Origin: Siphonodentalium dalli
Taxonomy: Eukaryota > Mollusca > Scaphopoda > Gadilida > Siphonodentaliidae
Direction: 5' to 3'
NCBI GenBank assembly: GCA_032622095.1
Contig: CP136063.1
Span: forward strand, 31,064,987 to 31,128,986
DNA length: 64,000 bases
A program made the position numbers and the translations under genes. Of this stretch, positions 40,097 to 44,852 are shown piece after piece. How positions within the stretch are numbered: the first letter of the stretch is position 1; each line of letters opens with the position of its first letter. The notes under the pieces were generated by a model that saw nothing but the letters and a program-made list of their open reading frames with translations, ran no database searches and was not told the DNA's origin.

Positions 40097-40325
40097 GTGT
40101 TACGCCAGCTTTTGAAGTAATTACCACTTTTGAAGTAGGTCTCCACTTTTGAAGTAAAAAACGCCAGCTTTTGAAGTAACTCACCACTTTTGTAATAAAA
40201 TCGCCAGCTTTTGTAGTAAAGTGAGGTCTCCGCTTTTGAAGTAAAAAACGCCAGCTTTTGTAGTAAAAAAACTAGGTCTCCACTTTTGAAGTAACAAAAT
40301 TACAGCTTTTGAAGTAAACTGACTC
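40097..40325. repeat. Subterminal motif array, left
   Basis: About ten copies of CTTTTGAAGTAA or CTTTTGTAGTAA, alternating GCCAG- and CCA- prefixes, separated by GGTCTCC or AAAACG spacers. Typical of transposase-binding arrays, by analogy only. Confidence 0.8.
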
Positions 40326-40329
40326 AATA

Positions 40330-41330
40330 AATTTTGACGGGCGCTGAACGATTTTCATGACAAAGTCAACCCGATAATCAATAGTGGCTATCGCCCATAC
40401 GAGTGTGACGTGGTTTGAATAGCTTTCAGTCATGCCAACACAATCGCCCATACACGTGTGACGTGTACCAAAAGGCACTTAGTGAGTCCGGTTCCGTGAC
40501 AAAAGATTCCACACAGGTAATCGACCATACGAGTGTGACGTGGTTTGAATAGCCTCCAATCGTACCAACACAAGAGAAATCACACAGCCAATCGCCCATA
40601 CACGTGTGACTTGTACCAAAAGGCACTTAGTGAGTCCGGTTCCGTGACAAAAGAATCCACACCGGTAATCGACCATATGCATGTGACGAGGTTCGAATAT
40701 CCTTCAGTCATACCAACACAAGAGAAATCACACAGTCAATCGCCCATACGCGTGTGACGTGTACCAAAAGGCACTTAGAGAGTCCGGTTCCGTGACAAAA
40801 GAATCCACACAGGTGATCGACCATACGAGTGTGACGTGGTTTGAATAGCTTTGAGTCATACCAACACAAGATAAATCATACAGTCAATCGCCCATACATG
40901 TGTGACTTGTACCAAAAGGCACTTAGTGAGTCCGGTTCCGTGACAAAAGAATCCACACCCGTAATCGACCATATGCATGTGACGTGGTTCGAATAGCGTT
41001 CAGTCATAACAGCAGAAGATAATTTATAGAGTCAATCGCCCATATAAGTGTGACGTGTACCGAACGGCATTTAGTGAGTCCGTTTTTCTGCCAAAGCATA
41101 TGAACACACATAGGTGATCAATCATACGAGTTACGAGTATATAAGATTGTTCCCAGTCAGCCTGACAACCCACACTATTGAATGCCCTTACAAGTGCGAC
41201 CGTTGTCAGAAGAAGTTCGATGTTACATTGAGTCAGACAAGACTGAAGACGTTTTGTCAGTCCAGTAACATGACGACATATATAGTTTCTCGAAATTAGG
41301 TGATGTATTAGTTCCAACGGAAAATAGTTG
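40330..41330 (+). pseudogene. Decayed C2H2 array, left arm
   Basis: Repeating blocks of about 150 bp read RPYTCDLYQKALSESGSVTK, then ESTP and PYECDV-like pieces. The Cys pair, hydrophobic and linker positions of C2H2 fingers are visible but the His pair and frame are mostly lost. Near 41180 a clearer unit reads YKCDRCQKKFDV. The consensus differs from the TGDKP family of ZNF-A to ZNF-G, so this is an older, separate ZNF lineage. Confidence 0.55.
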
Positions 41331-42008
41331 GTATATTTATTATTGGCCTCACTTTTAATTGCATATTCGTACCCTCGAAATTAGGTGACCCGACGCGTTA
41401 GGGACAGCAGAAAATGTTTGGTTTATTAGATTCGTCTCTGGAAGGCGACATTAACAACAATTTTCAATCATTAAAATTATGTCACATAACCGAAGTATTA
41501 TAACTACGTCAAACGTGGCCAGCTATAAAACACGGGAGCCAGTAATGTGTTGTATGGAAACCATTGGGTTCACATACACTCTGATGATTGAGTATATAAA
41601 ATAACGGATTCGGTGGCATTATGTCGCTATACAGGGAAAGTTAAACTTTCAAATCTCAATGTTCTTGATGCTAAAAGGTTCAGTCTCCTTTCAAAATTTA
41701 TTCAACACAATATACGAATACAATTAATTATTCTATTGTCAATTGTCAGGCACAGCAATACAAAATGAAACGCATAACAAAATTAAGAATGAATGGAACG
41801 ATGTTGTTGATGTTGTTAAATAATAATTAGTCAAATTTATCCTCAACCTCCCCTTAGACGCTATATTTATTGAATAGATATGTATAATATTGTATAGCTT
41901 GATCCCTTATCGCCTCTCATCCACATCAACAATTCTGCTATCTGAATCTGTTTTGTTTATTATGGTCAATAAATGAAATCAATATTCTATCATGAAGACA
42001 ATATATGA

Positions 42009-42132
42009 TGGTATACATATTTACTATTGCTATGTTGCACCTATCAATTGGGGTCAGACTAAGTGGTGTATGGTATACATATTTACTATTGCTATGTTGC
42101 ACCTATCAATTGGGGTCAGACTAAGTGGTGTA
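42009..42132. repeat. 62 bp tandem duplication
   Basis: Two identical units starting TGGTATACATATTTACTATT in the loop of the foldback element. Confidence 0.9.
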
Positions 42133-43261
42133 TTATAGTCAGGGAAGGTTGAGGTGTCCCACGGACTGATAACTTAACATAAAAACAATGGTGAATTATT
42201 TTGAGATATCACTGGTCGATCATGATTGATATCTAGATCTACAATGTAGATCATAATTACTACTCCCCTCATTTTCAACTACGTTAGTTATAAACGCCCA
42301 GACCGTGCGCTGCTCGCAATGTGGTAACCCCTTTCCAAAAAAAAAAACTAAATACCAAATGCAGAACAAAATTACGACAATGAATTTATTGATATACTGC
42401 AAACCATCGGTGCACGCTGGGATTGATGAGCAATTATGTATAACACAAAATAGAATATATGCCAGTCCCTTCCCAATAGTATTGCCCTCGACTTACCAGC
42501 AACTTACCGTAACATACCTGCCCTATTCAGGGCAACACCAGTTACTGGCGATTGTGGCCAATGTTGACACCTCCCACTCGCAGAGGACTCACATTCAACA
42601 ATGCAATCGCAGGCATAGCTACCACATGGTGTAATACACGCTCGGAACACGGGCTCCACTGGCCGCCATGGAGAATCACCACAGCATAACGCCTGAACAT
42701 TAAATGTTATGATAAAACATTACAACTGTAGCGCCCAAAGAGGCCGGATCTACACAGCGATATGGTATGCGATTTTCTTGTTATCCTGTTCCCTCTTTTG
42801 AAGGTTCTAGAGCTGTCACGAAGTCTCGAACGATATAACACAATCCCGTAACAGACGTGAGTATGTTCAATAATTTAGTTTGTAATTCCAGGAACCATTA
42901 TCTCTCGTTATTAAAGTGTCCAAAGGAGATTGTATTTCAGTTGTAAATTGAATGAACATCTTTGACTTATTATTATGTAGCACGTGCATGATAATATTAT
43001 TCTAACTGGGACAATGACTCGTGAAATTATGCAGAATCGGTGTCTTGTTGTATGACATTCTTAATCACCTGACATCTGGACTTTCGTCCTTTGTTTCATA
43101 GTTGGCCAATCAGAATGAACCACGTTAAGAAAATGGACTTATTTATCATTATTGATAATCGACTATAAAATTACAAAAAGGAGACTGAACCTTTTGGCAC
43201 CAGGAACATTGCGAATTGGAAGTTTGACATAGGGCTGTTCTTCCAAAGAAGAGCACAAATA

Positions 43262-44580
43262 GACCAACTATTTTCCGTTGTAACTGATACTTTTGTCACG
43301 TCCCCCAATTTTGAGGAAATGTACATGTTGCCATGTTACTGTACTGACAGAACGTCTTCAGACACACATCTTGTCACCAGCGTGGATTCTCTTATATATT
43401 GTAAGACTCACGGTCATGGCGAACTTCTTCTAACAAACGTCGCACCCATAAGGCCGGTCACCAGTGTGGATCGCCAGGTTGACGGACAGACTGGGAACAA
43501 CATTGCATACCCGTATGATTGACCACCTATGTGTGTTCTCATGTGCTTAGGCAAGGAACCGGACTAACTAAATGCCTTTCTGGTACACGTCACACGTGTA
43601 TGGGCGATTGACTGTGTGATTTCTCTGGCGTTGGTATGATTGGAGGATATTCAAACCACGTCACACTCGTATGGTCGATCACCTGTGTGGATTCTTTTGT
43701 CACGGAACCGGACTCACTAAGTGCCTTTTTGTACAAGTCACACGTGTATGGGCGATTGACTGAGATTTCTCTTGTGTTGGTATGATTGGAGCCTATTCAA
43801 ACCACGTCACACTCGTATGGTCGATTACCTGTGTGGATTCTTTTTGTCACGGAACCGGACTTACTAATTGCCTTTTGGTACACGTCACACGTCTATGGAC
43901 GATTGACTGTGATTTCTCGTGATGGTATAACTGAAAGCTATTCAAACCACGTCACACTCGTATGGCCGATTACCGGTGTATATTATTTTGTCACGGAACC
44001 GGACTCACTAACTGCCTTTTTATACACGTCACACGTGTATGTGCGATTGACTGTGATTTCTCTTGTGTTCGTATGATTGGAGGCTATTCAAACCACGTCA
44101 CACTCGTATGGTCGATCACTTGTGTGGAATATTTTGTCACGGAACCGGACTCACTAAGTGCCTTTTGGTACAAGTCACACGTGTATGGGCGATTGACTGT
44201 ATGATTTATCTTGTGTTGGTATGACTCAAAGCTATTCAAACCACGTCACACTCGTATGGTCGATCACCTGTGTGGATTCTTTTGTCACGGAACCAGACTA
44301 TATAAGTGGCTTTTGGTACACGTCACACGCGTATGGGCGATTGACTGTGTGATTTCTCTTGTGTTGGTATGACTGAAGGATATTCGAACCTCGTCACATG
44401 CATATGGTCGATTACCGGTGTGGATTCTTTTGTCACGGAACCGGACTCACTAAGTGCCTTTTGGTACACGTCACACGTGTATGGGCGATTGACTGTGATT
44501 TCTCTTGTGTTGGCATGACTGAAAGCTATTCAAACCACGTCACACTCGTATGGGCGATAGCCACTATTGATTATCGGGTT
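43262..44580 (-). pseudogene. Decayed C2H2 array, right arm
   Basis: Inverse of the left arm. On the minus strand near 43380-43480 it reads [16 protein letters not shown], a stop, KKFAMTVSL, and YKRIHAGDK: a clear finger with one stop and a His-to-Tyr change. Further out are the same ~150 bp blocks with GGTTCCGTGACAAAA. Confidence 0.55.
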
Positions 44581-44630
44581 GACTTTGTCATGAAAATCGT
44601 TCAGCGCCCGTCAAAATTTATTGAGTCAGT

Positions 44631-44852
44631 TTACTTCAAAAGCTGTAATTTTGTTACTTCAAAAGTGGAGACCTAGTTTTTTTACTACAAAAGCTGGCGT
44701 TTTTTACTTCAAAAGCGGAGACCTCACTTTACTACAAAAGCTGGCGATTTTATTACAAAAGTGGTGAGTTACTTCAAAAGCTGGCGTTTTTTACTTCAAA
44801 AGTAGAGACCTACTTCAAAAGTGGTCAGTTACTTCAAAATCTGGCGTAACAC
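44631..44852. repeat. Subterminal motif array, right
   Basis: Inverse of the left array: TTACTTCAAAAG repeats with GGAGACCT spacers, ending TCTGGCGTAACAC. Confidence 0.8.

Follow-up and report, generated by a model that had tools for sequence, protein, structure and literature searches.

A foldback DNA transposon family of Siphonodentalium dalli with arms of decayed zinc-finger repeats and a probable integrase-type mobiliser

Structure of the element

The stretch analysed in this study (the window) comprises 64,000 nucleotides of the scaphopod Siphonodentalium dalli and was placed by genome search at positions 31064987-31128986 of contig C3 (CP136063.1) in a nine-contig assembly of 2.23 Gb. 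A foldback element of 4,754 bp, 5'-TGTTACG...CGTAACA-3', occupies positions 40098-44851 of the window; its ends were set by the target site duplications (TSDs) of other copies in the genome. The preliminary description of this DNA had recognised the inverted structure correctly and had given its limits as 40097 and 44852, which are replaced here by the exact ends.

The arms are inverted copies of each other (40097-41131 versus 44852-43811), and in their outer part, 40123-40443 versus 44505-44825, the identity is 100% over 321 nt. In each arm the outer ~220 bp form an array of the 12-bp motif RCTTTTGWARTA, with ten copies in the left arm (40108-40316, + strand), nine exact copies in the right arm (44632-44822, - strand) and none in the rest of the window. 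One degenerate copy of the same type was seen by eye further outward in the right arm, at about 44830-44841. These arrays, which were already noticed in the preliminary description, may represent transposase-binding sites. Decayed C2H2 zinc-finger arrays with a broken frame follow at approximately 40377-41281 (+) in the left arm and 43326-44583 (-) in the right arm, each made of 77+71-nt dimers and then three differently damaged units. Further inside, the arms share an inner homology (41243-41338, +, and 43257-43361, -; 77%, inverted) and an innermost one (41640-41691, +, and 43177-43228, -; 86.5%, inverted). Long terminal inverted repeats (TIRs) with internal tandem repeats, as described for foldback transposons, are hence present in this element. 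No Rfam matches were found in the window, and viral contigs scanned with a 23-mer of the TIR and a 30-mer of the dimer gave no match to either. Two exact matches of the TIR 23-mer in a scan of genome contigs, both in Bathyarchaeota, were dismissed as coincidence: the surrounding sequence is unlike the element, and the first match lies inside an open reading frame (ORF) that we take to be a Holliday-junction resolvase.

Zinc-finger origin of the arms

The tandem unit of the arms is 148 bp long and is composed of 77 and 71 nt, with variants of 67, 69 and 78 nt. Comparison of six zinc-finger proteins of the window with the element by tblastn gave E-values down to 1.4e-27 and single high-scoring pairs of up to 79.7 bits, versus a best score of 25.4 bits among 20 shuffles of the element. 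A total of 21 nhmmer matches to a profile of the 84-nt finger unit were found, 14 in the element (best E 5.4e-4) and seven across 100 shuffled copies (best E 2.3). Nine 77-nt units show 46-49 identities in 84 columns with the 84-nt finger unit of the intact zinc-finger genes of the window, and none of 500 shuffles and none of 2,000 background chunks attained the score of any of them. The signal is lower in the 67-71-nt units, some of which were equalled by few background chunks and others by many, 400 of 2,000 at most; a partial unit of 53 nt and the two units lying innermost in the left arm have no significance individually against shuffles or background. Readable finger and linker residues, among them KRIHAGDK, were identified by tblastn, as was a 32-residue finger-type reading still present at the inner end of the right arm. 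The matches extend inward to ~41281 on the left and ~43326 on the right, and the finger series runs from outside to inside in both arms. The last three units correspond between the arms, with lengths of 80-83, 64-65 and 84 nt (the last length being set by the script), and the inner homology comes after them. Within the element 156 zinc-finger matches were found by tblastn (E 0.01), and none in the flanks 39458-40096 and 44853-51315. The earlier reading of the arms as degenerate C2H2 repeats thus holds, and zinc-finger sequence continuing beyond the ends was not found in these flanks.

An open frame of 84-nt finger units, as in a functional C2H2 gene, is not present in the arms, which consist mostly of 77- and 71-nt units with stops. 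Tabulation of unit lengths in 12 other copies revealed 71 nt 103 times and 77 nt 91 times. Since these two lengths recur in both arms and in the 12 copies, and neither keeps the frame, the fingers appear to have lost their function before the dimer was amplified. Dimers 2 and 3 of the left arm match their mirror dimers in the right arm at 99.3% and 96.6%, above their same-arm neighbours, which suggests either that amplification preceded the inverted duplication or that the arms exchanged sequence later; capture, inversion and amplification can be put in order only in part. The spacer at 40319-40403 was also tried as the start of zinc-finger genes and was rejected: the best of seven comparisons was reached by 11 of 1,000 shuffles and the other six by 118-609.

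Copies in the genome and their target duplications

The genome was searched with the first 304 bp of the element (TIR) as bait, and the best 40 of 863 candidates were scored. Other copies, which the preliminary description could only propose to look for, were found: 44 matches were obtained, of which 40 span 303-304 nt at ~100%, on four contigs. From these, 30 distinct places were extracted, giving 28 complete copies that were compared together with the window copy (29 copies in all). Exact 6-bp direct repeats stand immediately outside TGTTACG...CGTAACA in 25 of the 29 copies, and a 5-bp repeat is present at two others (L023 and L040). Dispersed copies with target duplications, the further property of foldback transposons, are hence found for this family. 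The base preceding the 6-bp duplication is A in 22 of the 25 copies, and the base following it is T in 19. An 8-bp duplication was considered, as many flanks repeat A-N6-T, and was rejected, as only the inner 6 bp are repeated in L013, L014, L015, L017, L024, L030, L035, L038 and L039, a count that assigns the terminal T and A to the element.

Zinc-finger dimer motifs occur in both orientations in all 29 copies (four and one in L018), and the older copies L043 and L045, for which the listed mutual matches are at 69-92%, have zinc-finger matches at both ends. The interior is more variable than the TIR, with a median pairwise identity of 97.1% (95.7-99.9) over 951 bp in 28 copies. A site of a palindromic miniature inverted-repeat transposable element (MITE) that is abundant in the window flanks seven of the 29 copies, in both orientations and in a variant form at L026. 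The flanks of L030, L034 and L036 resemble the element's own TIR, i.e. these copies are inserted into another copy. L018 is a miniature derivative of 1,415 bp, nearly arms only, with the duplication CTCGTC. In L013, L027 and L034 there is an 865-bp stretch that has no counterpart in the window copy and contains a reverse-transcriptase-like frame of 205-255 amino acids (YADD by eye); it is probably a fragment of a long interspersed nuclear element that was acquired by the element and spread along with it.

Transposase-bearing copies

Two copies, L035 (9.13 kb) and L036 (8.99 kb), have an extra 4.43 kb relative to the window copy. The segment is located at 42210-42212 of the window, with a 3-bp CAC microhomology on both sides of the junction. 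A segment of ~4.4 kb is also carried by L043, a complete copy of 9.2 kb. The only inverted matches within the 4.43-kb segment are of 13 and 18 nt, and none makes terminal repeats. Of its right part, 375-391 bp survive at at least 14 other loci, and two separate pieces of the segment are present in L031. The lack of terminal inverted repeats on the segment and the varied remnants elsewhere suggest that a longer parent underwent internal deletions, and speak against an insertion. The segment would thus have been deleted from the window copy and not originally absent, which makes a non-autonomous derivative the best reading of that copy.

The protein encoded by the segment contains an integrase core and an OTU protease domain. 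The Pfam family rve was identified in L035 (9.5e-12). The core is split into pieces in L036 (rve at 6.8e-5 falls short of the cut-off and rve_3 at 4.2e-6 narrowly passes it), where OTU was found at 4.7e-8. A single open frame of 909 amino acids in L043 contains both rve (4.8e-11) and OTU (2.4e-6), each over the cut-off. The best NCBIfam models for the L043 protein are IS481 (4.8e-27) and IS3 (2.8e-13), neither of which reaches its curated cut-off, and the best sequence matches of the integrase in PDB are foamy-virus integrases (7e-13). Regular expressions for the HHCC, H2C2 finger and GPY/F patterns, the only form in which these were sought, gave no match in the L043 protein. Of the intact genes that the preliminary description proposed to look for between the ends, a transposase with an open frame is present in L043, and no intact captured zinc-finger gene was seen. 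In the window copy itself, none of 20 ORFs scanned from the interior and inner arms was above the Pfam cut-off. The transposase, the absence of the 4.4-kb segment and the mismatched flanks described below had escaped the preliminary description because their recognition needs other copies.

When a 243-amino-acid piece of the integrase was searched against the genome (best 150 of 3,637 candidates scored), five places were found at 94-100% identity (one over 87 residues only), one at 78%, one at 52% and the remainder at 43% or less. The complete copy L043 is among the places located by this search.

Inversions of the interior and a probable fusion

Analysis of the ends revealed two terminus types. 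One of them adjoins the interior on its left side in 22 of 29 copies, and the opposite arrangement is found in seven (L028, L031, L033, L035, L036, L037 and L043). This count includes L043, excludes L018, which has no interior, and places L031 by one end, the other being partly deleted. Interiors are thus flipped with respect to the ends in some copies.

The window copy differs from L014 on contig C1 by 11 mismatches in 4,754 nt (99.77%) without gaps, and three of the 11 fall within the final 48 bp of the right end. This right end has the AACTGACC form, which among the 29 copies is shared with L043 only. The left flank (40015-40097) is part of the abundant palindromic MITE, with the target A-CCCATG-T, a site that other copies also use. 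The right flank (44852-45352) belongs to a different interspersed repeat, scored matches of which (best 40 of 438 candidates) lie on all nine contigs at 94-97%, the flank itself excluded. Unoccupied copies of this repeat exist elsewhere: two, alike where read, give CCCCTGTGACGCGAGTCATTG across the junction and a third gives CCCCTGTGACGTGAGTCATTG, and the right target is on this basis A-CGCGAG-T. Both mismatched half-sites fit the A-N6-T preference, and the window copy is thus probably a fusion of two insertions.

Insertion sites and zinc-finger clusters

Among 31 sites of the element, 24 have a neighbour within 2 Mb; in 2,000 draws of random sites, for which five unmeasured contigs were assigned equal lengths, the mean was 1.6 and the maximum 10. 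All 15 sites on C3 lie at 16-59 Mb, and zinc-finger genes of the window type lie at 13-55 Mb of the same contig (best 40 of 1,617 candidates scored). A zinc-finger cluster on C7 has none of the scored element copies, and C1, with 13 element sites, has none of the scored zinc-finger matches. Zinc-finger matches occur in the flanks of five of the 19 loci tested (six flank pieces); one of these loci, L034, sits inside a further copy of the element, and the match may come from the arm of that copy. A preference for insertion into zinc-finger clusters is a lead, and the clustering may stem from the best-N candidate lists. L028 has zinc-finger matches on both flanks, and the target of L013 is at the finger-like GTGACACATAAG; both are probable insertions into zinc-finger arrays.

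Proposed history and alternative explanations

Overall, our analysis makes it very likely that the element in the window is a non-autonomous copy of a foldback DNA transposon family with arms from a captured zinc-finger gene and an integrase/OTU protein as mobiliser. An ancestor would have acquired a host C2H2 zinc-finger gene beside an outer motif array. The captured gene would have died, typically with a loss of 7 or 13 nt per finger, the dead two-finger unit would have been amplified, and the inverted placement of the whole at both ends would have preceded the spread of the surveyed copies. The transposase, an integrase-type DDE enzyme with an OTU domain encoded mid-element in longer copies, would bind the 12-bp motifs at both ends, cut at 5'-TG..CA-3' and join the ends to A-N6-T targets with a stagger that yields the 6-bp duplications. 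Copies without the transposase segment, like that of the window, may have moved in trans. Recombination of the arms within and between copies would flip the interiors and would have united the flanks of two insertions in the window copy. Of the two origins considered in the preliminary description, a transposon with a captured and inverted zinc-finger gene is favoured by the multi-copy ends, the duplications at the copies and the lack of zinc-finger matches in the flanks searched, and a zinc-finger gene pair that gained transposon-like ends is the less favoured alternative.

Several observations weigh against the captured-gene transposon. The TIR bait and the scoring of the best 40 of 863 candidates select for TIR identity and possibly for clustering, and two loci (L032 and L042) yielded no complete copy and stand outside all counts. 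Target duplications are absent in the window copy and L016 among the 29 copies compared, and the flanks of L043 are also without one. No copy with an intact captured zinc-finger gene was seen among those surveyed. The relative at 53%, L044, is without such arms, L044 being a fragment. The reciprocal junction of the proposed fusion had no genome match at one mismatch or fewer, and for this reason a deletion joining two adjacent insertions is no less likely than an inversion.

It is scarcely credible that the locus is immobile and arose when a zinc-finger pseudogene was duplicated locally in inverted orientation, the short tandem array at its breakpoints being due to chance. The missing duplication at the window copy and a second large inverted zinc-finger duplication in the window (27262-31898 / 34567-40019) would suit such an origin; near-identical ends in many copies on four contigs, 6-bp duplications at unrelated sites and the existence of versions with a transposase speak against it. 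Only slightly better, and still very improbable, is a satellite that resembles a zinc-finger gene without being derived from one. The 148-bp period is no multiple of 84, and background is not exceeded individually by several of the 67-71-nt units, by the 53-nt unit or by the innermost two of the left arm. Against this stand the tblastn scores far over shuffles with their readable stretches, the nine 77-nt units that no background chunk equalled, the nhmmer result and the finger and linker residues retained in order in the inner units. We also think it unlikely, less strongly so, that the integrase/OTU segment is an unrelated insert in a foldback element whose real mobiliser is another protein. 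The segment breaks the shared interior at one point, and the CAC on both sides can be read as a duplication. It lacks terminal inverted repeats, partial remnants of differing extent are kept in other copies, 6-bp duplications with TG..CA ends suit an integrase of the IS481/IS3EU type (available part of PMC10045372), and the 20 ORFs scanned from the window copy's interior and inner arms include no Pfam-passing candidate.

Comparison with known systems

On the features described, the family appears nearest to IS3EU/GingerRoot, with GingerRoot-like features fitting best. This placement is based on the 6-bp duplications, the TG..CA ends, the IS481-like core and the lack of an HHCC pattern. In the available part of PMC10045372, both groups have 6-bp duplications and an integrase core without HHCC. 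IS3EU ends are given there as always TA..TA, which the ends of the element contradict, and GingerRoot ends as mostly TA..TA and occasionally TG..CA, which permits them. OTU and zinc finger are absent from the main text of that paper, and the part available makes no mention of long tandem-repeat arms.

Ginger1, as described in the available part of PMC2836005, has TGTNR ends, OTU or Ulp1 domains, TIRs of 40-270 bp, 4-bp CCGG/CCGT duplications, an H2C2 finger and GPY/F. The element shares the TGTNR ends and an integrase-type transposase that has a C-terminal OTU in some Ginger1 families, and differs in its varied 6-bp duplications, in TIRs outside that size range and in the lack of H2C2 and GPY/F patterns in L043. 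TGT..ACA ends are common to the element and some IS481EU families; IS481EU has duplications of ~4, ~15 or ~25 bp and TIRs that are mostly below 50 bp (available part of PMC10045372), neither of which matches it. The family is accordingly outside both Ginger1 and IS481EU as defined.

Galileo, a member of the P superfamily with foldback form, resembles the element in its long TIRs, which are internally repeated in some subfamilies, and in its several transposase-binding sites, repeats that may bind transposase in series; it is also known for chromosomal inversions. Unlike the element it has a P/THAP transposase, and no host-gene origin of its TIR repeats is mentioned (all from the available part of PMC3688188). 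Tetris and other foldback elements share the foldback form, TIR tandem repeats that feed satellite DNA, and non-autonomous copies (available part of PMC4079207). Tetris differs in its assignment to Mutator in that source, based on 8-10-bp duplications, and 'zinc finger' is absent from the text of PMC4079207. The same source, in its available part, cites the suggestion that loss of the transposase gene and lengthening of the TIRs lead to the foldback form. In the literature searched, which excludes most subscription papers and the GingerRoot paper, neither zinc-finger-derived terminal repeats nor a foldback member of these integrase superfamilies was found, a result that does not prove absence. 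The foldback class of DNA transposons is known; dead zinc-finger arms on an integrase-type transposon are, as far as could be checked, new.

Other features of the window

The second inverted duplication is larger than the element, ~12.7 kb overall with a best stretch of 92% over 2.5 kb. Its zinc-finger genes face outward, and its right arm stops at the MITE next to the element. Arrays with a 50-bp period lie in opposite orientation directly downstream of the paired zinc-finger genes (27825-28305 and 38769-39457). The palindromic MITE-like repeat is present at 26220-27084, 8279-9304 and 62617-63667 and in many partial copies; the transposon family has inserted repeatedly at one of its internal sites. 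A tyrosine-recombinase-like gene, presumably Crypton-related, is located at 57943-58938 (-) and 58889-59701 (-), with DUF3504 at 1.4e-24 and Phage_integrase at 3.4e-15, and a QRICH1 match slightly below the cut-off lies upstream of it.

Significance

Speculatively, and in our estimate rather improbably, the dead zinc-finger arms could be a working part of the transposon, a recombination substrate that keeps the ends alike, flips interiors and fuses insertions, and that perhaps biases insertion towards zinc-finger clusters. On that speculative reading, a gene family believed to keep transposons in check in some animals would itself have become the ends of a transposon. If the proposed history is true, the route to the foldback form would be a different one, in which a captured host gene dies, is amplified in satellite-like fashion and is inverted at both ends, with the same arms present on copies that still encode the transposase. 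The foldback form would be extended to integrase-type DNA transposons, and one and the same genome offers deletion derivatives as a natural series, together with flips, a probable fusion and an open transposase frame.

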